From positions 1 through 54,717 of IMG/VR virus record IMGVR_UViG_3300025674_000053: a DNA stretch of 54,717 nt; one strand, 5' to 3'. A program made the position numbers and the translations under genes. This DNA is from a virus. The notes under the pieces are model-generated. The model saw only the letters and a program-made list of their open reading frames with translations, did no database searches and was not told the DNA's origin. This document shows, one piece after another, positions 2 through 50,937 of the stretch (positions within the stretch are counted from its first letter, which is position 1; every line of letters begins with the position of its first letter).

Positions 2-598
2 AAAATACTTGGAGGTGAACCAACAACTCACCCACAGTTCCCCGAAATCGTTGACTTTTTGCTCGATTCAGGGGTAGCAAAAGAGGTTTGGTTAAATACA
101 AATGCTCTGAATATGACTGAAAAAGTAGTAAGTGCATGTTCTAAATTAGATAAAATTTTAATAAGTATATATCCTATGGTAGATACGAATACAAATCAAG
201 TGGCAGAGTACAAAAATAGTGGACTTACTAGACAGTTCAAGAAAGTTCACATAGCAGTAATGACAAGTTTCGAGAAGTTTGGTGTGCCACAACCACATCT
301 ACAGTACACACCTGAAGGAAACTGGAAAAGGTGTTGGCAGAAAGAATTTTGTAGAACAATAGAAGGAGAAACAATGTATCAATGTGCTATTTCTTTTGGT
401 AGAAAAGCAGAAGGAATACACATAGCAGATTGGGGTACTAAATTAGACAGACCTCTAAAGATGTGTGATACTTGTTATTTTCCTCCAGCAGAAGAACAAT
501 GGAGTAGTTTGAAACCTAAGAAGGATTACAGAAACCTTCACAAAGGTATCAAATTATGGAGAGAGTATAAAAACAAAATAAATATAAAGGAGATTTAA
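2..598 (+). CDS. Radical SAM family protein, C-terminal part (5' truncated by window)
   Basis: The reading frame is open from the window edge, so the gene begins upstream; the TTG at 59 is not a credible start. The first visible residues contain LGGEPTTHPQFPEIVDFLL, the GGEP motif that follows the [4Fe-4S] cluster segment in radical SAM enzymes and contacts the SAM amino group. The CxxxCxxC motif itself would lie upstream and is not visible. The C-terminal half has clustered cysteines (CWQKEFC, then MYQC, then MCDTCYFPP), resembling an auxiliary SPASM/twitch-type cluster region. The substrate cannot be told; such enzymes act on peptides, sugars or nucleotides. It heads a plus-strand run ending at the terminator near 2161. 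The family call is fairly safe, the role unknown. Confidence 0.72.
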   Translation, partial: KILGGEPTTHPQFPEIVDFLLDSGVAKEVWLNTNALNMTEKVVSACSKLDKILISIYPMVDTNTNQVAEYKNSGLTRQFKKVHIAVMTSFEKFGVPQPHLQYTPEGNWKRCWQKEFCRTIEGETMYQCAISFGRKAEGIHIADWGTKLDRPLKMCDTCYFPPAEEQWSSLKPKKDYRNLHKGIKLWREYKNKINIKEI

Positions 599-1480: not shown

Positions 1481-1610
1481 ATTTTATTCACTAGAACTAA
1501 AGTACGGAAAAGAAGAAGCAATTCGCATCGCTGCAGAAGAGTGGGGTGAATCAGTAAACATAGTAAAGCAAAGAGTCAAAGACTGGGAGGACATAACAAA
1601 GTGGCTATAA
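1455..1610 (+). CDS. Small hypothetical protein (51 aa), missed by length cut-offs
   Basis: An ATG preceded by a strong GAGGAGG sequence 6 nt upstream opens a 51-residue frame that overlaps the previous gene by 26 nt and the next by 10 nt. The protein is highly charged and probably all helical (MTTKDKESEFYSLELKYGKE start, IRIAAEEWGESVNIVKQRV core). The core pattern 'AAEEWGESVNIVKQRV' resembles the recognition-helix part of the small HTH proteins found elsewhere in this window, so it may be a minimal member of that group. No function can be assigned. Confidence 0.6.
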   Translation: MTTKDKESEFYSLELKYGKEEAIRIAAEEWGESVNIVKQRVKDWEDITKWL

Positions 1611-1909
1611 ATTATACAGAAAAACAAGTAAAACATATGATAGAAGCATATACATTTGAACCAACTAGAGAAACTGTGGAAAAATTAGCAGAAGAATATA
1701 ACAAGAGTGTAAAATCTATTATAGGTAAACTAAGTAGAGAAGGAGTATATAAGAAAACCGAGTATACTACCAAAACTGGAGAGAAACCAGTAACAAAATT
1801 AGAGTTAGTGCAAGAACTAGCAGAAAGATTAGATATTAACCCCAACGCCCTAGCGGGTTTAGAAAAAGCACCCAAGGTAGCGTTAAAAAAGATATTGGAG
1901 GCAATATGA
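1601..1909 (+). CDS. Small HTH-type DNA-binding protein
   Basis: A 102-aa protein beginning at a GTG preceded by GGGAGG about 12 nt upstream. The N-terminal 50 residues carry the pattern YTEKQVKHMIEAY...TRETVEKLAEEYNKS then VKSIIGKLSREGVYKK, a helix-turn-helix in which the 'S-x-x-S-I-x-x-K-L-x-R-x-G-V-Y' segment would be the recognition helix. The same signature recurs in the proteins at 13581-14051 and 20020-20736 and in the minus-strand protein at 2834-3010, so these look like paralogues. The C-terminal half is charged with a predicted helical tail. A role in transcription or replication control is inferred only from the fold. It overlaps the next gene by ATGA. Confidence 0.65.
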   Translation: MAINYTEKQVKHMIEAYTFEPTRETVEKLAEEYNKSVKSIIGKLSREGVYKKTEYTTKTGEKPVTKLELVQELAERLDINPNALAGLEKAPKVALKKILEAI

Positions 1910-2127: not shown

Positions 2128-2160
2128 GGTACACGGGAAATTAGATTAAATTGAGGAAGA

Positions 2161-2184
2161 ACCCACTTAATTGTGGGTTTTTTA
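2161..2184 (+). terminator. Intrinsic terminator closing the left operon
   Basis: The stem ACCCAC / GTGGGT encloses a 6-nt loop (TTAATT) and runs straight into six T residues. This is a textbook Rho-independent terminator on the plus strand, 33 nt past the last gene of the left operon. Confidence 0.9.
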
Positions 2185-2619
2185 TTGCTTAGAGAAAATT
2201 TTGAATTGGTGCAAGTTTCTTAGAATTAAGACGTGATTGTAGTAATTAGTGGTTAAAGTGGGTGTTTATAAAGTCGTTGATGTTGACTTTAGCGATACTT
2301 GGTTGTATCTTGTTGATATGTTTATACAATTAACACTCTGTCATTGTCCCAGATTAGATGCTCAGCTGTCACTCTCGCTTCGCTTCGTTCCAGCTTCTCA
2401 GCATCAGTTAGGACTAACGAGTGTAATCGGTAGTTCGTATTGACTATATAATCAAATTATGATATTATTATATCACAACTTTTATCATAATGCAAGAAGT
2501 GTTTTTCCTAGGGGTATGAAATTGTGTTTTATTTTAAGTTGAGAATCCAAGAAAATATTTTGACTTTTTAGTGAGGATTGTAGAATTTAGTTTAATTGTT
2601 CTTGTGATTTTCGTAGGGG
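2185..2619. other. Gene-poor AT-rich stretch
   Basis: About 430 bases with no credible gene. It contains an imperfect inverted repeat at about 2358-2405 (GATGCT near the left end, AGCATC near the right end, with AGCTG/CAGCT inside), a perfect 6-bp-stem AT palindrome TGATAT-TATT-ATATCA at 2460-2475, and a possible plus-strand promoter at 2440-2468. Several short T-rich runs follow. It could hold a small RNA, an operator region or an origin-like element. None of these is demonstrated. Confidence 0.4.
2440..2468 (+). promoter_or_regulatory. Possible sigma-70-like promoter
   Basis: TTGACT and TATTAT are separated by 17 bp, the spacing used by every other promoter in the window. The upstream AAAATAGTTC extension is mostly absent (TAGTTCGTA precedes it), and no open frame follows. 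If active it would produce an RNA antisense to the bS21 region. Weak call. Confidence 0.3.
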
Positions 2620-2847
2620 TCAGATTTTCTTTGCGATACGCAATCTTCTTTCGAGTTGAAATGCTTTTCGTTTCTCTAATTCTCGTGTTCTTTTCCTATA
2701 ATTGTTCATTTCATTTCGCTTTTGATTGGGTTTGATGTAATATTTTCTGTTTCTGCACTCCTCTTTTATTCCAGCATTGTCGCATTTCTTCCGAAAGATA
2801 CGCAGTGCTTTTTCGAAACTCATATTCTTAGAATCAACTCTTGGCAT
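2620..2847 (-). CDS. rpsU: Ribosomal protein bS21, phage-encoded
   Basis: A 75-aa, very basic protein starting at an ATG with a near-perfect AGGAGGT site 6 nt upstream; longer in-frame extensions upstream lack such a site. The sequence SFEKALRIFRKKCDNAGI, then CRNRKYYIKPNQKRNE and a long Arg/Lys-rich helical tail, matches bS21 (family pattern: ALRxFKR, then GI...RRREFYEKP..KRK). bS21 is a small-subunit protein near the anti-Shine-Dalgarno end of 16S rRNA and helps initiation. Phage-borne bS21 genes are known from aquatic phages and are thought to join host ribosomes. The start lies inside the upstream HTH gene (14-nt overlap), so both share the promoter at 3017-3055. Confidence 0.9.
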   Translation of the reverse strand: MPRVDSKNMSFEKALRIFRKKCDNAGIKEECRNRKYYIKPNQKRNEMNNYRKRTRELEKRKAFQLERRLRIAKKI

Positions 2848-3010
2848 CAGACCTCCTGTGAAAAGTCCATCCACGTTTCCGTAGATAGTATACTAATGAG
2901 GTGACAGATGACGCACTCCTGTCCAGTGTACGTGCGATATCTTCTGTTGGCTTTACATTGTAATGCCGTTTGATGTATTCTTTTTCTGCCATAGTCCATG
3001 TTTTTTTCAT
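2834..3010 (-). CDS. Small HTH DNA-binding protein upstream of bS21
   Basis: A 58-aa protein starting MKKTWTMAEKEYIKRHY. The frame is open further upstream through a TTG, but that codon lies within the promoter, so the ATG at 3010 is the start. It sits exactly 7 nt past the -10 box and no ribosome binding site precedes it: a leaderless gene. The core KPTEDIARTLDRSASSVTSLVYYLRKRGW is a homeodomain/SANT-like HTH of the type found in the other small HTH proteins here. As the first gene of a two-gene operon with bS21 it may be an autoregulator, which is inference. Confidence 0.7.
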   Translation of the reverse strand: MKKTWTMAEKEYIKRHYNVKPTEDIARTLDRSASSVTSLVYYLRKRGWTFHRRSDAKS

Positions 3011-3016
3011 ATCTAT

Positions 3017-3055
3017 ATTATACAAAAATTTTTGATTGCTGTCAAGAACTATTTT
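3017..3055 (-). promoter_or_regulatory. Promoter, minus strand, for HTH-bS21 (leaderless start)
   Basis: On the minus strand: AAAATAGTTC extension, TTGACA (3045-3040), 17-bp spacer, TATAAT (3022-3017). The ATG of the HTH gene begins 7 nt beyond the -10 box, where transcription would normally start. Confidence 0.88.
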
Positions 3056-3066
3056 TAGGTATGTTC

Positions 3067-3105
3067 TAGATTATTCTTGACTTATGGTGGGAAAGTTGCT
3101 ATAAT
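3067..3105 (+). promoter_or_regulatory. Promoter, plus strand, for the 48-aa gene (leaderless start)
   Basis: TTGACT at 3077-3082, 17-bp spacer, TATAAT at 3100-3105. The upstream extension is degenerate (ends TATTC). The ATG at 3112 is exactly 7 nt past the -10 box. It diverges from the minus-strand promoter at 3017-3055; the two -35 boxes are about 31 bp apart. Confidence 0.82.
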
Positions 3106-3111
3106 ATATCT

Positions 3112-3258
3112 ATGAATGAAAATGATATATACTATTTATTTTTTCTAGCGATGTGTGTACATCTTGCCTATTCGCTGGGAAAACAACTCGGAATAAGAAC
3201 CACGATAGACTATTTGGAACACAAAGGACTCATAGAGTTTGATGACTCTGAAAAATAG
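3112..3258 (+). CDS. Small, possibly membrane-anchored protein (48 aa), leaderless
   Basis: The ATG coincides with the predicted transcription start of the promoter at 3077-3105. The 48-residue product has an N-terminal hydrophobic stretch (IYYLFFLAMCVHLAYSLG) that could be one membrane helix, followed by a short soluble tail ending LEHKGLIEFDDSEK. I recall similar short proteins of pattern 'G-x-x-x-G-x-x-x-T-x-x-Y-L-E-x-x-G-x-I-E-F' in other phages, without known function. The stop TAG is the TAG of the next promoter's AAAATAGTTC element. Confidence 0.65.
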   Translation: MNENDIYYLFFLAMCVHLAYSLGKQLGIRTTIDYLEHKGLIEFDDSEK

Positions 3259-3290
3259 TTCTTGACATCAAGGTTAAATTTTGATATAAT
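3252..3290 (+). promoter_or_regulatory. Promoter for the Hsp20 / lysis operon
   Basis: AAAATAGTTC extension, TTGACA at 3262-3267, 17-bp spacer, TATAAT at 3285-3290. The predicted start is near 3297, giving a leader of about 75 nt that begins directly with a stem-loop. Confidence 0.9.
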
Positions 3291-3296
3291 TATTTT

Positions 3297-3349
3297 GTAA
3301 GTGATAAGTTTCACTTGCGTATTGGTGCATCTACCGTTTTTGGAGATGC
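3297..3349 (+). promoter_or_regulatory. Structured 5' leader of the Hsp20 gene (two tandem hairpins)
   Basis: The first stem pairs GTAAGTGA (3297-3304) with TCACTTGC (3311-3318) around a 6-nt loop, including one G-U pair, and begins at the predicted +1. The second pairs GCATCT (3327-3332) with AGATGC (3344-3349), with CC/GG closing a T-rich loop after a single unpaired A. The AAGGA site before the ATG at 3372 stays outside both stems. This could be a stabilising 5' hairpin or a thermosensor-like leader; neither is shown. Confidence 0.55.
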
Positions 3350-3371
3350 GAGTATTTACTGAAAAGGAATT

Positions 3372-3764
3372 ATGGAGAAAAATATGAGTATAGATTTAAG
3401 TAAATTTTGGCTTGGATTGGATATGCCTACACTACCGAGTTACACGGAGAGTGGATATCCGAGATATAACCTAATCGAAAGGCAAGGCGACTATCGTATA
3501 GAAGTTGCAGTACCAGGTTGGAAAAAAGATGAGTTGGAGATAGTCTTTGATAACAAAGAACTCCACATCAAGGGTAAAAAAGAACAGAAACTGGGAGCTG
3601 ACGAACAATTTGTTCATCAGGGGCTAAGTCTGAAATCTTTTGAACGAAGATTTATTCTAAACGCTGACCTACAAGTAGATGAAGTAAGTCTACAAGACGG
3701 ATTACTGACAATCCAACTAACACGAACTCCAGATTCCAAGAGAAAAATCTTGGAGATTAATTAA
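3372..3764 (+). CDS. Small heat shock protein, Hsp20/alpha-crystallin family
   Basis: A 130-aa protein with an alpha-crystallin domain spanning about residues 38-125. Visible family features are the strand YRIEVAVPGWKKDELEIVF, the ELHIKGKKE segment, the LSLKSFERRFILNADL block and the closing GLLTIQLTR strand. An internal ATG four codons later is an alternative start. Hsp20 proteins are ATP-independent holdases; phages of cyanobacteria and marine bacteria often carry one, proposed to protect or scaffold virion or host proteins. This gene leads the operon that contains lysis genes and has its own promoter and structured leader. Confidence 0.9.
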   Translation: MEKNMSIDLSKFWLGLDMPTLPSYTESGYPRYNLIERQGDYRIEVAVPGWKKDELEIVFDNKELHIKGKKEQKLGADEQFVHQGLSLKSFERRFILNADLQVDEVSLQDGLLTIQLTRTPDSKRKILEIN

Positions 3765-3892
3765 TGAAAGCATTAGCAAAAGTTCGTGATAGTATATGTG
3801 AGAACGGAGAGTTCTGCAACATGGTTGCAAATACAACTCTCGTATGTGCCTTTGGTGGCATCATGCTGAATAGCATTGTCGTTCTTTCATAA
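3764..3892 (+). CDS. Small putative membrane peptide (42 aa)
   Basis: The ATG overlaps the stop of the Hsp20 gene by one base (TAATG) and has GGAG about 8 nt upstream. The C-terminal half, MVANTTLVCAFGGIMLNSIVVLS, is a good single transmembrane helix, and the N-terminus is short and charged. It lies just before the endolysin gene, so a holin or pinholin-like role is possible from position alone. No family is recognised and the gene is too short for certainty. Confidence 0.5.
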   Translation: MKALAKVRDSICENGEFCNMVANTTLVCAFGGIMLNSIVVLS

Positions 3893-8962: not shown

Positions 8963-9121
8963 ATGAAAAATACAGAATACAAAGAACACAGAACTTGTCA
9001 GATGTGGAATGCTGAGACAAAGTCATTTGATGATTGGCATATCGGAGAGTGCGAACACTGCGGAGAAGAACTAGACCATCAGTCTGGCGAATGTCCAAAG
9101 TATAAGTGCTGGATAGCATGA
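8963..9121 (+). CDS. Small zinc-ribbon-like protein (52 aa), leaderless
   Basis: The ATG lies at the predicted transcription start with no room for a ribosome binding site. The product begins MKNTEYKEHRTC and continues with CEHCGEELDHQSGECPKYKC, i.e. Cys13, a CxxC pair and two further Cys. This suits a small zinc-binding fold. It ends in an ATGA overlap with the next gene. No family name can be given. Confidence 0.65.
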   Translation: MKNTEYKEHRTCQMWNAETKSFDDWHIGECEHCGEELDHQSGECPKYKCWIA

Positions 9122-14781: not shown

Positions 14782-15720
14782 ATGAATAAGACAGAATACC
14801 TAGAATTATGTAATCAAAAGTATGCAGAAGGTAATCCTATATTACCTGACGATGTATACGATAGACTCGTAGAGAATACCGAACTTGAAAATAAAGTTGG
14901 GTATGATGTAAGCGAGGCGAGACATAAACATCCTTACCCAATGTATTCATTACAGAAAGTCTTTATCGGAGAAGATAAAGAACCAGATTGGGATTCCAAA
15001 CAACCACACATAATGACTGCCAAGTTGGACGGTGCAGCTGTGTCTATAACTTATATAGATGGCGTACTGACACAGGCATTGACTCGTGGAGATGGTAAAG
15101 CAGGACTAGATATTACTGATAAAATTAAGACTTTAGTACCAAATAAAATATGGAGTAAAGGACTGAAACAGATTACTGGAGAAGTTGTTGCCCCTAAGAA
15201 AATACCAAATGCTAGAAATTATGCAAGTGGTGCTTTGAATCTAAAGGACTTAGAAGAATTTAAATCTCGTGATTTAACTTTTATTGCTTATGGTATTCAA
15301 CCAGCAATTTGTCCCGAGTGGACTGCTGATATGGGCATGGTAAAAGACATGGGATTTAATACTGTCACACTTAGTGATTGGAATGAATTTCCTCAGGACG
15401 GTAAAGTTGTAAGGGTCGACTCTAATAGATATTTTGACACATTAGGCCACACCTCACACCACCCTAGAGGAGCTTTCGCTCTAAAGACAAGACAGGCTGG
15501 AATAGTTACTCGACTCTTGGACGTTGAATGGAATGTCGGGAAATCAGGTGCTGTATCACCAGTTGCAATCTTAGAGCCTTGTGTCATAGGAGAGGCGACA
15601 GTAAGCAGAGCAACCCTACATAATATCGGATATATCGAAGCATTAGACTTAGAGATTGGATGTGATGTAGAGGTTATTCGTAGTGGAGAAATCATACCTA
15701 GAATTGTAAAACGAGTATGA
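14782..15720 (+). CDS. ligA: NAD-dependent DNA ligase, N-terminal half (adenylation + OB domains)
   Basis: A 312-aa protein. A short Ia-like domain (YAEGNPILPDDVYDRLV, then HPYPMYSLQKVF) precedes the nucleotidyltransferase domain with active-site motif K81-L-D-G (MTAKLDGAAVSITY). Later come TRGDGKAG, ITGEVVAPKK, ALKTRQAGIVTRLLDVEWNV and GATVSRATLHN-like GEATVSRATLHNIG, then the OB-fold end GCDVEVIRSGEIIPRIVKRV. It stops where the zinc finger of LigA should begin. Zinc-finger, HhH and BRCT domains are instead encoded at 19259-20017. Translation starts on a leaderless message from its own promoter. Confidence 0.92.
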   Translation: MNKTEYLELCNQKYAEGNPILPDDVYDRLVENTELENKVGYDVSEARHKHPYPMYSLQKVFIGEDKEPDWDSKQPHIMTAKLDGAAVSITYIDGVLTQALTRGDGKAGLDITDKIKTLVPNKIWSKGLKQITGEVVAPKKIPNARNYASGALNLKDLEEFKSRDLTFIAYGIQPAICPEWTADMGMVKDMGFNTVTLSDWNEFPQDGKVVRVDSNRYFDTLGHTSHHPRGAFALKTRQAGIVTRLLDVEWNVGKSGAVSPVAILEPCVIGEATVSRATLHNIGYIEALDLEIGCDVEVIRSGEIIPRIVKRV

Positions 15721-46071: not shown

Positions 46072-49000
46072 TTAATCTTCCGACCACTGGCTACCATCCC
46101 AGAAGGACGCATTAAATGCTTCTGCGCTAGAAACTTCTGTGTCGAAGATTGTTCCAGCTGCTGATGCGGTAATTCTTTCAAATACTTGTGTACCTGTCTC
46201 AAACGTTGTAGTTGTAGTAGGAGTTGTCGTCCTAGTTGTATCTGTATCTCTAGTTGTTTGAATTGTTGTAGTTGTACTTTGACCTGTTGCATAGGTTGTA
46301 GTTCTAGTTGTATTGAATGTTGTAGTTGTATTAAATACTGTTGTTCTACTTGTTTCAGTCGCTCTACTAGTATTGAATGTACTTGTCGTGTCTCTACTAG
46401 ACCCTGTGCTTCTACTTGTAAGAGAGGCTCTTGAAGTTTCATATGTAGATACTGTGTCTTGACTTGTGACAGTTCCTCTACTTGTAAGAGAATCTCTTGA
46501 GGTTGCAAAGGTAGATACTGTATCTTTGCTTGTAACAGTTCCTCTAGTTGTTTCTGATAGTCTAGAAGTGTTGTATGTAGATACTGTATCTTTTGAAGTA
46601 AGTGTTGATTTACTTGTCCCTGTAGTAGTATTTGTATCAAACGTTGTAGTTGTACTTTTACTTGTGCCTGTTGACCTAGTTGTAAGAGTTCCTTGAGAAG
46701 TAGCATATACTGTCGTGGTGTCTCTACTTGTAAGAGTTGCATTACTTGTATCTGTTGATTGTGTTGTATTAAATACTGTTGTAGTATCTTTACTTGTTCC
46801 TGTAGTTCTAGTTGTATCTGATACTCTTGAAGTATTAAATGTAGTACTTGTACTTTTGTCTGTTCCTGTAGTTCTAGTTGTATCTGACAGTCTAGAAGTA
46901 TTAAATGTTGTTGTTGTATCTCTATCTGTAACTGTTCCTCTAGCTGTGTTAAATACTGTTGTAGTATCTCTACTTGTTCCTGTGCTTCTAGAAGATAGTC
47001 TTGAAGTTTGATATGTTGTCTCAAATTCTGTAGTTCTACTTGTATTTGTTGTCTGAGTAGTATTATAACTTGTTGACTGCGCAGTATTACTTGTTCTACT
47101 CGTATTTGTTGTAAATGATGTATTGTACGAGGTAGACTGTGCCGTACTACTCGTTCTACTCGTATTCGTTGTAAATGATGTATTATACGAAGTAGATTGT
47201 GCAGTACTACTTGTTCTACTTGTATTTGTTGTAAATGATGTATTATACGAAGTAGATTGTGACGTACCAGTTGTTTTACTTGTATTTGTTGTAAACGACG
47301 TGTTGTACGAAGTAGATTGTGCAGTACTACTTGTTCTACTTGTGTTAGTAGATTGTGTAGTAGTGTAACTTGTTGATTGTGCAGTATTACTTGTTCTACT
47401 TGTATTAGTAGATTGTGTAGTAGTATAACTTGTTGACTGCGAAGTATTACTTGTTCTACTTGTATTTGTTACCTGAGTAGTAGTATAACTTGTGGAAATA
47501 ATAGTATCTGTAGTTGCTGAAGTATTTGTAGTCCTTGTTGTAGCAAAGGACGTATTGTTAGTAAATACTGTTGTTCTACTTGTGTTTGTGCTTCTTGCAG
47601 TTGTAAATGATGTATTATCAGTATATTGTGTAAGTCTACTTGTATTTGTACTTCTTGTGGTAGCAAAGGATGTGTTATCAGTAAATACTGTTGTTCTACT
47701 TGTTGCAGTATTTCTTGTTGTAGCTTGTGATGTATTATCACTATATTCTGTAAGTCTACTTGTCGCAGTATTTCTTGTTGTAGCTTGTGATGTATTATCA
47801 GTATATTCAGTTGTTCTACTTGTTGCAGTATTTCTAGTTGTAGCTTGCGATGTATTATCAGTGTATTGTGTAAGTCTACTTGTGTTAGTAGAGTTTGTAA
47901 AGCCTGTACTTCTTGTTGTAGCAAAGGACGTATTGTTAGAAGTATTTGTATTTCTACTTGTCGCAGTGTTTCTTGTTGTACCTGCTAAGTCTTCAGTTAC
48001 TCTAGTCGTATTATTTGTAAATGCAGTATTTACAGATGTGTTTGTTCCGAAAGACGTAGCGTTTGTGAATGATGTATTACTAGCATACTCTGTAGTTCTT
48101 GCTGTATTATTTGTAAATCCTGTACTTCTACTTGTGTTTGTTCCAAAGGATGTAGAGTTTGTAAATCCTGTGTTATCGGTATATTCAGTTGTTCTTGCTG
48201 TGTTATTTGTAAATCCTGTACTTACACTTGTGTTTGTACCGAAGGATGTAGAGTTTGTAAACCCTGTACTTGCTGTATATTCAGTTGTTCTCGCTGTGTT
48301 TGTAGCGAATGAAGTAGCATTTGTAAACTCTGTAGTTCTCGCTGTGTTAGTTGCGAATGAAGTAGAATTTGTAAACGCTGTATTTCTTGCTGTGTTGGTA
48401 GCTTGAGAAGTGTTGTAATTAGTACCTGTAATACCTGCAGTAATAGTATCCGTAAATAATGTAGCTTGAACGTAGCCCTGACTATAAGAGAAGTATGTAT
48501 ACGTAAACGAAGTAGTAGTAACATGCGATGTATTTGTAGCCCTACTAGTTCCAAAACTGGTATTATTTGTAAATCCTGTACTTCTTGCTGTGTTTGTATT
48601 TCTTGTAGTATTATTTGTAAATCCTGTACTTCTTGCTGTGTTTGTATTTCTTGTAGTATTATTTGTAAAGCCTGTACTGTTTGATGTATTTGTATTTCTA
48701 GCAGTATTTGTGTTTCTAGTTGTATTTGCTGCAAATTCTGTAGTTCTTGCTGTGTTAGTTGCGAATGAAGTACTTCTTGATGTATTTGTACCTCTTGCTG
48801 TATTTGTATTTCTAGTCGTGTTAGCTGTATATTCAGTTGTTCTTGCTGTGTTTGTAGCAAATGAAGTAGAATTTGACGTGTTTGTACTTCTACTTGTTGC
48901 AGTATTTCTAGATGTATTTGCCGTAAACTCTGAAACTCTCGATGTATTCGTAGCAAAGGCCGTAGCGAAAGATGTATTTGTACCAAACGAAGTAGAGTTT

Positions 49001-50937
49001 GTAAATGATGTACTTCCTGTGTATTCTGTTAGTCTTGCTGTATCATACGAAGTATTTCTCGCTGTATTTGTATTGACAGCAGCAAGTGCTGTATTTCTAG
49101 AAGTGTTTGTAGCAAAAGCAGTATTGTACGAAGTACTATTCGTGAAGCCTGTACTTCTTGATGTATTCGTAGCAAACGCTGTATTGTAGGATGTACTGTT
49201 TGTAAAGCCTGTACTTCTTGATGTATTCGTAGCAAAAGCAGTATTATATGATGTAGAGTTTGTAAAGCCTGTACTTCTACTTGTGTTTGTAGACTGTGTA
49301 GTAGTATACGAAGTATTTACTGCATCTAACGCTGTATTTCTAGATGTATTGGTAGACTGAGTAGTAGTATAGTTTGTATTTACTGCATCTAACGCTGTAT
49401 TTCTAGAGGTGCTTGTAGATTGTGTAGTATTGTATGAGGTACTAGCCTCAAAAGCAGTGGTTGTATCATGTGCAGTATTTCTTGTTGTAGCAAATGATGT
49501 ATTGTCTTCGTAAGCAGTTGTTGTACTAAACGTTGTAGTTCTAGTTGTGCCAAATGATGTATTATCTGAATAAGCAGTTGTTGTACTAAACGTTGTAGTT
49601 CTAGTAGTAGCAAATGATGTATTATCTGAATAAGCAGTTGTTGTATCAAATGTTGTTGTTCTAGTGGTTGACTGAGATGTACTGTCCTCATATGCAGTAG
49701 TTGTATCAAATGTTGTTGTTCTAGTCGTAGATTGAGAGGTACTGTCTTCATATGCTGTAGTCGTATCAAATGTTGTTGTTCTAGTCGTAGATTGAGATGT
49801 ACTATCTTCATATGCTGTAGTCGTATCATATGTAGTTGTTCTTGTAGTTGATTGTGACGTACTGTCCTCATATGCTGTAGTAGTCTCAAATGTTGTAGTT
49901 CTAGTCGTAGCAAACGAAGTACTATTTGTAAATTCTGTAAGTCTATTAGTTAAAATAGTCGTATCAAAGAAAGTTGTAAATGTAGTTGTAGTTTCGTACG
50001 CTGTTGTAGTTGTGAGCGTAGTATTAAACGTTGTAGTTGTTGTAAAATCTGTTGTAGTTTCAAGCGTTGTGTTAAACGTTGTTGTTGTAGTAAACGTTGT
50101 TGTTGTATTAAATGCAGTAGTCGTATTTCTGCTAGTTTCAAATACTGTTGTAGTCTCAAATGTTGTAGTTGTATTAAATGCGGTAGTTGTAGTTTTACTA
50201 GTATTAAATGTTGTAGTTGTAGTAAACGTTGTAGTTGTGTTAAACGCAGTTGTTGTAGTAGTATTTGTATCAAACGTTGTAGTTGTAGTAAACGTTGTAG
50301 TTGTGTTAAACGCAGTTGTTGTACCTTGCGTAGTTGCATAAGTTGTTGTAGTATTAAATGCAGTTGTAGTACTAAACTCTGTTGTTGTTGTTATTGTTGT
50401 GTTAAACGTTGTTGTTGTATTAAATGCAGTTGTAGTTGTAAAATCAGTTGTTGTAGTTGTAGTTGTATCAAATGTAGTTGTTGTATTAAACTGCGTTGTT
50501 GTTGTAAAATCTGTAACCGTAGTAATGGTTGTATTGAAAGTTGTTGTAGTGTTAAATGCAGTGGTGGTAGTAAATGCAGTTGTAGTATTGATTGTAGTTG
50601 CAAATACTGTTGTAGTTTCAAAAGTAGTAGTTCTGTTTGTTTCAGTACTTCTTGATGTATTAAATTCTGTAGTTCTACTAGTATCGAAACCTGTTGTTGT
50701 ATTGTAGTCAGTATCAAAAGCTGTAGTAGTATTAAAGGTAGTTACAATATCAGTGGTATTTGTTGTTCTCGCTGTGTCAGTATTTCTAGTTGTTTCATGC
50801 ACAGCAGAAAACGGCCCCGCAAGGTTGCCGTTATCGTTTACATATACTTCATTGACCCTTCGTATTGTGCCGCCATCGTTGACTGCAAGGAAGGATATCT
50901 GACGTAATGTACCACTGTCATTAACATATATTGCCAT
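46072..50937 (-). CDS. Giant Thr/Ser-rich repeat fibre protein (mucin-like)
   Basis: A 1621-aa protein. Residues 1-47 carry three copies of a short motif (YVNDSGTLRQI, AVNDGGTIRRV, YVNDNGNLAGP). Nearly all the rest is low-complexity sequence dominated by Thr, with Ser, Asn, Arg and spaced Phe/Tyr: T-tracts with F every 6-10 residues first (TTTTFNTTTTF type), then 20-residue units such as TTRTTTFDTTTAYEDSTSQS, TNTSRSTGFTNSTSYNTAFA and TNTSRTSNTAQSTSYTTTQS. The last 45 residues are non-repetitive (VFERITASAAGTIFDTEVSS ... FWDGSQWSED). Context between virion-like genes suggests a tail fibre or surface fibre. No homologue is recognised. Regular aromatic spacing suggests a beta-solenoid or elongated fibril; Thr density would allow O-glycosylation. 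Confidence 0.8.
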   Translation of the reverse strand: MAIYVNDSGTLRQISFLAVNDGGTIRRVNEVYVNDNGNLAGPFSAVHETTRNTDTARTTNTTDIVTTFNTTTAFDTDYNTTTGFDTSRTTEFNTSRSTETNRTTTFETTTVFATTINTTTAFTTTTAFNTTTTFNTTITTVTDFTTTTQFNTTTTFDTTTTTTTDFTTTTAFNTTTTFNTTITTTTEFSTTTAFNTTTTYATTQGTTTAFNTTTTFTTTTTFDTNTTTTTAFNTTTTFTTTTTFNTSKTTTTAFNTTTTFETTTVFETSRNTTTAFNTTTTFTTTTTFNTTLETTTDFTTTTTFNTTLTTTTAYETTTTFTTFFDTTILTNRLTEFTNSTSFATTRTTTFETTTAYEDSTSQSTTRTTTYDTTTAYEDSTSQSTTRTTTFDTTTAYEDSTSQSTTRTTTFDTTTAYEDSTSQSTTRTTTFDTTTAYSDNTSFATTRTTTFSTTTAYSDNTSFGTTRTTTFSTTTAYEDNTSFATTRNTAHDTTTAFEASTSYNTTQSTSTSRNTALDAVNTNYTTTQSTNTSRNTALDAVNTSYTTTQSTNTSRSTGFTNSTSYNTAFATNTSRSTGFTNSTSYNTAFATNTSRSTGFTNSTSYNTAFATNTSRNTALAAVNTNTARNTSYDTARLTEYTGSTSFTNSTSFGTNTSFATAFATNTSRVSEFTANTSRNTATSRSTNTSNSTSFATNTARTTEYTANTTRNTNTARGTNTSRSTSFATNTARTTEFAANTTRNTNTARNTNTSNSTGFTNNTTRNTNTARSTGFTNNTTRNTNTARSTGFTNNTSFGTSRATNTSHVTTTSFTYTYFSYSQGYVQATLFTDTITAGITGTNYNTSQATNTARNTAFTNSTSFATNTARTTEFTNATSFATNTARTTEYTASTGFTNSTSFGTNTSVSTGFTNNTARTTEYTDNTGFTNSTSFGTNTSRSTGFTNNTARTTEYASNTSFTNATSFGTNTSVNTAFTNNTTRVTEDLAGTTRNTATSRNTNTSNNTSFATTRSTGFTNSTNTSRLTQYTDNTSQATTRNTATSRTTEYTDNTSQATTRNTATSRLTEYSDNTSQATTRNTATSRTTVFTDNTSFATTRSTNTSRLTQYTDNTSFTTARSTNTSRTTVFTNNTSFATTRTTNTSATTDTIISTSYTTTQVTNTSRTSNTSQSTSYTTTQSTNTSRTSNTAQSTSYTTTQSTNTSRTSSTAQSTSYNTSFTTNTSKTTGTSQSTSYNTSFTTNTSRTSSTAQSTSYNTSFTTNTSRTSSTAQSTSYNTSFTTNTSRTSNTAQSTSYNTTQTTNTSRTTEFETTYQTSRLSSRSTGTSRDTTTVFNTARGTVTDRDTTTTFNTSRLSDTTRTTGTDKSTSTTFNTSRVSDTTRTTGTSKDTTTVFNTTQSTDTSNATLTSRDTTTVYATSQGTLTTRSTGTSKSTTTTFDTNTTTGTSKSTLTSKDTVSTYNTSRLSETTRGTVTSKDTVSTFATSRDSLTSRGTVTSQDTVSTYETSRASLTSRSTGSSRDTTSTFNTSRATETSRTTVFNTTTTFNTTRTTTYATGQSTTTTIQTTRDTDTTRTTTPTTTTTFETGTQVFERITASAAGTIFDTEVSSAEAFNASFWDGSQWSED
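47041..47520 (-). repeat. 60-bp tandem repeats in the Thr-rich fibre gene (C-terminal part)
   Basis: Successive 60-bp units, each encoding 20 residues like TNTSRTSNTAQSTSYTTTQS, stay in register for about eight copies with only scattered substitutions. The shared element encodes TNTSRT (read as ..GTTCTACTTGTATTTGTT.. on the plus strand). Neighbouring blocks use the same 60-bp period. Confidence 0.85.
49481..49930 (-). repeat. 60-bp tandem repeats in the Thr-rich fibre gene (N-terminal part)
   Basis: Seven or so 60-bp units encoding variants of TTRTTTFDTTTAYEDSTSQS and TTRTTTFSTTTAYSDNTSFA. Adjacent copies differ by a few bases, mostly silent or conservative, showing expansion by duplication with selection on the encoded pattern. 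Confidence 0.85.

Follow-up and report, generated by a model that had tools for sequence, protein, structure and literature searches.

bS21 is the most common of the ribosomal proteins found in phages (PMC9976891), as the original prediction for the locus described here had it, and the occurrence of bS21 in phages is in itself already published. The question of why phages carry this protein has stood since 2019. According to an existing hypothesis, it biases initiation by the ribosomes of the host (PMC9723584, PMC6375957). The bS21 of the pelagiphage HTVC008M enters E. coli 70S ribosomes and alters their activity, with the ribosomes about 5% active (PMC6375957), and bS21 affects the choice of mRNAs in Francisella and Flavobacterium (PMC9578407, PMC9976891). 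What is new here is a core bS21 locus of a T5-like clade, with a predicted leaderless helix-turn-helix (HTH) partner gene and an unclassified structured RNA.

Genomic context of the bS21 gene

The window, i.e. the whole stretch of DNA analysed, is a 54.7-kb linear virus record and represents a fragment. It harbours a T5-type replication set composed of a split NAD-dependent ligase (A/B), a D5-like regulator, a DnaB-like helicase, a primase, a family A polymerase, SbcD/SbcC and an exonuclease, and a ribonucleotide reductase was also counted among these T5-like replication genes. They are arranged in the T5 order, and the family A polymerase is 43% identical to those of Demerecviridae isolates. 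No capsid or terminase protein was recognised among the window proteins scanned. The replication genes and their order identify the contig as a T5-like phage. The phage source given in the original prediction is borne out. Contamination with host DNA was rejected, as the bS21 gene is present inside a T5-like genome and in dozens of viral contigs.

Elsewhere in the window, a 1621-aa protein without a PHROG match (46072-50937, minus strand) adjoins the tail-fibre genes. A 102-aa protein (1601-1909, plus strand) matches the IF-2 N-terminal domain (PF04760, 7.8e-6, barely above the cut-off) and HTH_3, and may be one more small protein with a link to DNA or to translation.

The bS21 gene (2620-2847, minus strand) starts with an ATG at 2847; its last sense codon ends at 2623 and is followed by a stop codon at 2622-2620, giving a protein of 75 residues. 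This protein matches the Ribosomal_S21 family (PF01165) at 4e-11, with 42.9 bits against a cut-off of 27, as well as phrog_21469, 'ribosomal protein S21'. By these profile matches its assignment to bS21 is far beyond chance, and the exact limits of the reading frame confirm that the gene is complete, as originally claimed. The claim that it is well initiated likewise holds: its Shine-Dalgarno (SD) sequence AGGAGGT (2851-2857, minus strand), located inside the HTH coding region, has a duplex energy of -10.6 kcal/mol and ranks 2 among the 78 window starts scored.

Close relatives of this bS21 are encoded at 51 viral loci, with 37 distinct sequences at the DNA level and 27 at the protein level. 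The bS21 gene is under purifying selection, with a median dN/dS ratio of 0.21 (Nei-Gojobori, pairs with dS < 1.5); the corresponding ratio of the HTH gene is 0.30, and therefore both genes are maintained. At two loci (L043 and L044), a CTG preceded by GGAG occupies the conserved bS21 start position, such that translation may begin at this CTG or at a later ATG. Among the bS21-bearing loci, L428 also carries a cluster of four tRNA genes (3494-3800, minus strand) and L048 a single one (21-93, minus strand). Two bS21 sequences served as queries against 50,697 phage records. The matches were to Mosig, jumbo Pseudomonas phages and others, and none of them was to a T5-like isolate.

The HTH gene and the conserved site

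The first gene of the operon is a small HTH gene (2834-3010, minus strand; 58 aa, ATG at 3010, stop at 2834) that shares 14 nt with the start of bS21. The two-gene minus-strand operon of the original prediction, with bS21 in second position after the HTH gene, is real and conserved: in almost all loci the HTH gene lies upstream of bS21 and the start overlap is kept. At locus L038, the start of the HTH gene is altered, and another small ORF is found between it and bS21. In a distant contig (G010, loci L267/L402), an HTH-like gene, a cell-wall-hydrolase-like gene and a strongly diverged bS21 gene are found in succession, and no leaderless promoter was seen at this HTH-like/bS21 site.

In Pfam the HTH match is weak, the best one (0.011) being under every cut-off. 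The protein matches PHROG 323 (T5 D5-like regulators; 1.4e-5) over a single domain, and its profile matches the window's own D5-like regulator with an hhalign probability of 88%. It comprises one domain only and is not a full-length D5-like protein. Its AlphaFold model has three helices (pLDDT 89), and a Foldseek search with this model returned generic HTH matches only. The HTH assignment is supported by the PHROG 323 match, the predicted three-helix fold and the similarity to the D5-like profile.

The operon promoter (TTCTTGACA-17-TATAAT; 3017-3048, minus strand) has the geometry of a leaderless gene. It matches TTGACA(3045)-17-TATAAT(3017) at 12 of 12 positions, and only 6 nt separate the -10 box from the ATG; therefore, the HTH mRNA is predicted to be leaderless, which is borne out as a prediction from sequence. 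This promoter is retained in most divergent loci.

On the other side of the operon lies a divergent promoter (11 of 12 positions) that precedes a putatively leaderless gene for a 48-aa membrane-like protein (3074-3258, plus strand), with its ATG 6 nt past the -10 box. The same type of gene adjoins hsp20 at loci L391 and L088. In the window it is followed by an Hsp20 gene with a promoter of the same family (3262-3764, plus strand; PF00011, 1e-15), which we used as a marker of the site. The conservation of the site was determined in a sample of 26 related records and the window, 11 of which contain hsp20. All 10 contigs spanning the site carry bS21 at no more than about 2 kb from hsp20; the eleventh hsp20 record (G434) stops about 0.3 kb beyond this gene. 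As judged from these gene neighbourhoods, bS21 and the HTH gene beside hsp20 form a core locus of a large marine T5-like clade.

Promoter family and leaderless starts

The promoters of the locus belong to a family, aaaaatagTTCTTGACA-17-TATAAT, with 13 sites in the window (at most 2 mismatches) for 1.2 expected, and 225 distinct sites over all the viral loci fetched. An ORF-opening ATG is present 5-9 nt past the -10 box at 78 of these 225 sites (35%) compared with 3.2% of random points, these counts reflecting promoter geometry in loci related by descent. The -10-to-ATG spacings peak sharply at 6 nt (54 sites), with another, broad peak at 24-29 nt. The 78 sites with leaderless geometry precede 29 HTH genes and 49 other genes. 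In the window, further genes with this geometry are found on the plus strand at 3112-3258, 8963-9121 and 14782-15720, the last one coding for DNA ligase subunit A. No leaderless case was found in stretches of 50 and 40 kb from two T5-like isolates, the promoters of which are similar. Most window genes use ordinary SD sequences. The coexistence of leaderless and SD-led starts noted in the original prediction is systematic; by promoter geometry, leaderless starts are a regular feature of this phage family.

Features of the bS21 protein

Alignments A1 and A2 showed that the conserved core residues M1, P2, R16, F18, A25, R32, K39 and P40 are retained in the window protein. It has the bS21 core pattern (MP..., F-ALR-F, AG, R, Y-KP, R) and the helical architecture of the family, with helices predicted at residues 11-24, 27-32 and 42-74. 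Foldseek with the predicted model gave no useful match, the helices being flexible. In E. coli, the last residues of bS21, RLY, pack on h37 and A1167 of 16S rRNA, a feature found across Gammaproteobacteria (PMC7550191). The window protein ends in RIAKKI and has no such RLY/KLY-like motif. A C-terminal [RK]x[YF] is present in 2 of the 27 distinct clade proteins, as opposed to 47 of the 56 bacterial C-termini sampled. The original prediction named the loss of residues contacting 16S rRNA as a refutation; the outcome is mixed, the N-terminal core being retained and the C-terminal head contact (h37/A1167) lost.

A profile of the phage proteins scored about 57 bits on the Pseudomonas and E. coli bS21 proteins and 21 bits on that of Flavobacterium johnsoniae. 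With a phage-only profile, the sampled gammaproteobacteria reached up to 72 bits and Marinimicrobia up to 53 bits, in a scan whose patterns and sampling are biased and whose sample lies outside Alphaproteobacteria. By sequence similarity, the window bS21 is of the gamma/betaproteobacterial type, which falls short of proof of the host. The comparison originally proposed for inferring the host led no further than 'most like gamma/betaproteobacterial bS21'. We dropped naming the host on this basis, since the outcome amounts to higher scores for gamma-type than for Marinimicrobia proteins with biased sampling.

A structured RNA downstream of bS21

A feature missed in the original prediction is a structured RNA downstream of bS21. 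The stretch at 2130-2620 has no ORF, yet it is 70-87% conserved. It contains the core of a putative structured non-coding RNA, a long hairpin with covariation (2324-2435), on the same strand as bS21. This core is preceded by a promoter (2467-2517, minus strand) made up of the box ATACCCCTnnnAAAAAnAnTTCTTG (2517-2493) and a TATAAT whose end is at 2467. On the other side, the RNA locus is bounded by the terminator of a convergent plus-strand operon (2157-2184, plus strand), a hairpin (z of -4.8) followed by a T run.

The consensus structure, built from 14 sequences, has 29 pairs, 10 of them with compensatory double changes. The proportion of paired cells is 97.8%, as against 29-42% with slid partners, and the covariation score is 0.346, compared with 0.169 in shuffles and reached by none of 500; all these statistics are those of alignment A5 alone, the mixed alignment A6, which includes a second RNA subgroup, being misaligned and having yielded no structure. 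The covariance model found matches downstream of bS21 at loci L391 (E value of 4e-12) and L266 (8e-9), and weak matches at L048, L050 and L392. Relative to shuffled sequences, folding has a z below -2 in 35 of 37 RNAs, and for 30 of the 37 the sense strand is the better folder of the two. Rfam 15 contains no match to the RNA at the gathering score, nor any at E values up to 1. Mimicry of the anti-SD sequence by the RNA was considered and rejected, CCUCC being present in none of the 37 sequences.

We scanned for the RNA promoter box with a query devoid of bS21 sequence, which gave 58 distinct loci, 54 of them with enough upstream DNA. bS21 is encoded upstream of the box in 53 of these 54 loci, within about 230 nt in 52 of them. 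The lone box without bS21 (L431) is a chance match of the pattern within a coding region; bS21 is thus present at 53 of 53 genuine loci. At L404, genes are inserted between bS21 and the RNA, which are about 1.1 kb apart and both retained. As far as sequence comparison goes, the greatest novelty of the locus lies in the RNA, whose link to bS21 is by position only. Since neither was ever encountered without the other, the RNA is probably a binding partner or a regulator of bS21.

Possible role of the locus

Promoter geometry, gene overlap, conservation and covariation can be read from the sequences themselves. They indicate that a host-type sigma-70 promoter drives a predicted leaderless HTH-bS21 mRNA in which bS21 is SD-led, and that the structured RNA just downstream has another promoter belonging to that family. 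Host RNA polymerase would transcribe the locus early, unlike the situation in Bacteroidetes phages, where bS21 RNA goes with late genes (PMC9723584). The HTH protein, related to the D5 regulator of T5 but with one domain only, might tune the local promoter cluster. The phage bS21 would bind the host 30S subunit late and exchangeably through its conserved N-terminal part and displace the host bS21, and its differing C-terminal part, beside the SD helix, might shift the ribosome pool towards phage mRNAs. Entry into the 30S subunit is plausible because the HTVC008M protein enters E. coli 70S ribosomes (PMC6375957), and an effect on mRNA choice is plausible given the literature on bS21 (PMC9578407, PMC9976891). 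By analogy, a bias of host initiation by phage bS21 is plausible. We give roughly even chances to this joint reading, a conserved clade locus whose bS21 replaces that of the host on the 30S subunit and favours phage mRNAs. In its favour are the purifying selection on bS21, its constant place beside hsp20, the conserved HTH overlap and leaderless promoter, the sigma-70-like promoter family, the collinear T5-like replication module, the covariation of the RNA and its linkage to bS21, and the published binding of a structured RNA, OLE, by bS21 (PMC12054373). The absence of the gammaproteobacterial RLY head contact from the window protein counts against it, as do the drop of translation to about 5% in the single published test of a viral bS21 (PMC6375957) and the late timing in Bacteroidetes phages. 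The simple notion that bS21 promotes leaderless translation is unsupported, because in E. coli it is the ribosomes without bS21 and other proteins that favour leaderless mRNAs (PMC4929434); if an initiation bias exists, the altered C-terminus of bS21 is its likelier cause. It is quite doubtful that the HTH protein, bS21 and the RNA form a single translation-takeover module in which, through binding of the RNA to phage bS21 or to the modified 30S subunit, they jointly shift initiation to the leaderless and short-leader mRNAs that are systematic in this clade and seemingly not made by T5-like isolates. Autoregulation of the Bacteroidia type through an extended SD (PMC9976891) was also considered and rejected, as the profile does not resemble that of Bacteroidetes and only the subclade of the window has the perfect SD.

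The conservation of the N-terminal core and the variability of the C-terminus within the clade would also fit a matter of supply rather than bias, with phage bS21 topping up or replacing an exchangeable, perhaps limiting host protein for all mRNAs, and the C-terminal change resulting from drift or from adaptation to a host bS21 devoid of RLY. The C-termini of phage S21 proteins tend to track those of the host (PMC7550191), and the ordinary SDs of most window genes agree with this proposal; however, it leaves the conserved linkage to the HTH gene and the structured RNA unexplained, and we consider it rather unlikely. A less probable explanation still is an extraribosomal role, in which bS21 would mainly bind the neighbouring RNA rather than serve as a ribosome component, for example to stabilise RNA, in counter-defence or to control its own operon. 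Bacterial bS21 can bind the structured non-coding RNA OLE (PMC12054373), and the strict co-occurrence of bS21 with the RNA as well as its diverged C-terminus point in the same direction. In contrast, the residues retained are those shared with ribosomal bS21, and the RNA has no anti-SD mimic (CCUCC in 0/37).

The structured element might instead be a DNA site, such as an origin of replication or a cruciform, or else part of a folded 3' UTR, its link with bS21 being inherited gene order only. The common descent of all the loci and the convergent intergenic position are consistent with this, and the antisense strand folds too, albeit less well. However, the element is preceded by a promoter that belongs to the phage family, its consensus contains many G-U pairs, and the bS21-sense strand has the lower folding z in 30 of 37 cases. 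We consider this explanation rather unlikely, too.

The clade with bS21 can be set against a cultured sister lineage, the T5-like isolates, where searches turned up no bS21; together with the difference in mRNA start types and the companion RNA, this makes it testable whether phage bS21 changes which mRNAs are started. With the locus comes, in addition, a phage RNA of no known class, a possible partner of bS21.

Comparison with known systems

In the window, as in the T5-like Demerecviridae GreteKellenberger and KEY, split NAD ligase, D5, polA and SbcCD form a collinear replication module, and the promoter skeleton is similar. In contrast, none of the T5-like isolates has a match to bS21 or to the HTH protein, and leaderless promoters are absent from the stretches checked. 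OLE (PMC12054373) is likewise a structured non-coding RNA that goes together with bS21, an association that here is one of position, but it is much larger and has an anti-SD mimic, whereas the window RNA has neither this mimic nor an Rfam match.

In the Bacteroidetes jumbo phages (PMC9723584), as in the window, the bS21 gene is oriented opposite to its neighbours, the C-terminus is divergent and a neighbouring gene is co-conserved. However, their bS21 is of the Bacteroidetes type, encoded near structural genes and tied to late expression, whereas the window promoters look like early, sigma-70 ones and its bS21 profile gives 21 bits for F. johnsoniae as opposed to 57 for Pseudomonas and E. coli. 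HTVC008M and Mosig (PMC6375957) also represent marine phages that encode bS21, and the HTVC008M protein enters E. coli ribosomes. Those phages are pelagimyophages, and the bS21 of Mosig is only 29% identical to that of the window. In contrast, the locus described here belongs to a T5-like phage and combines a gamma-type bS21 with a putatively leaderless HTH partner and a structured RNA.
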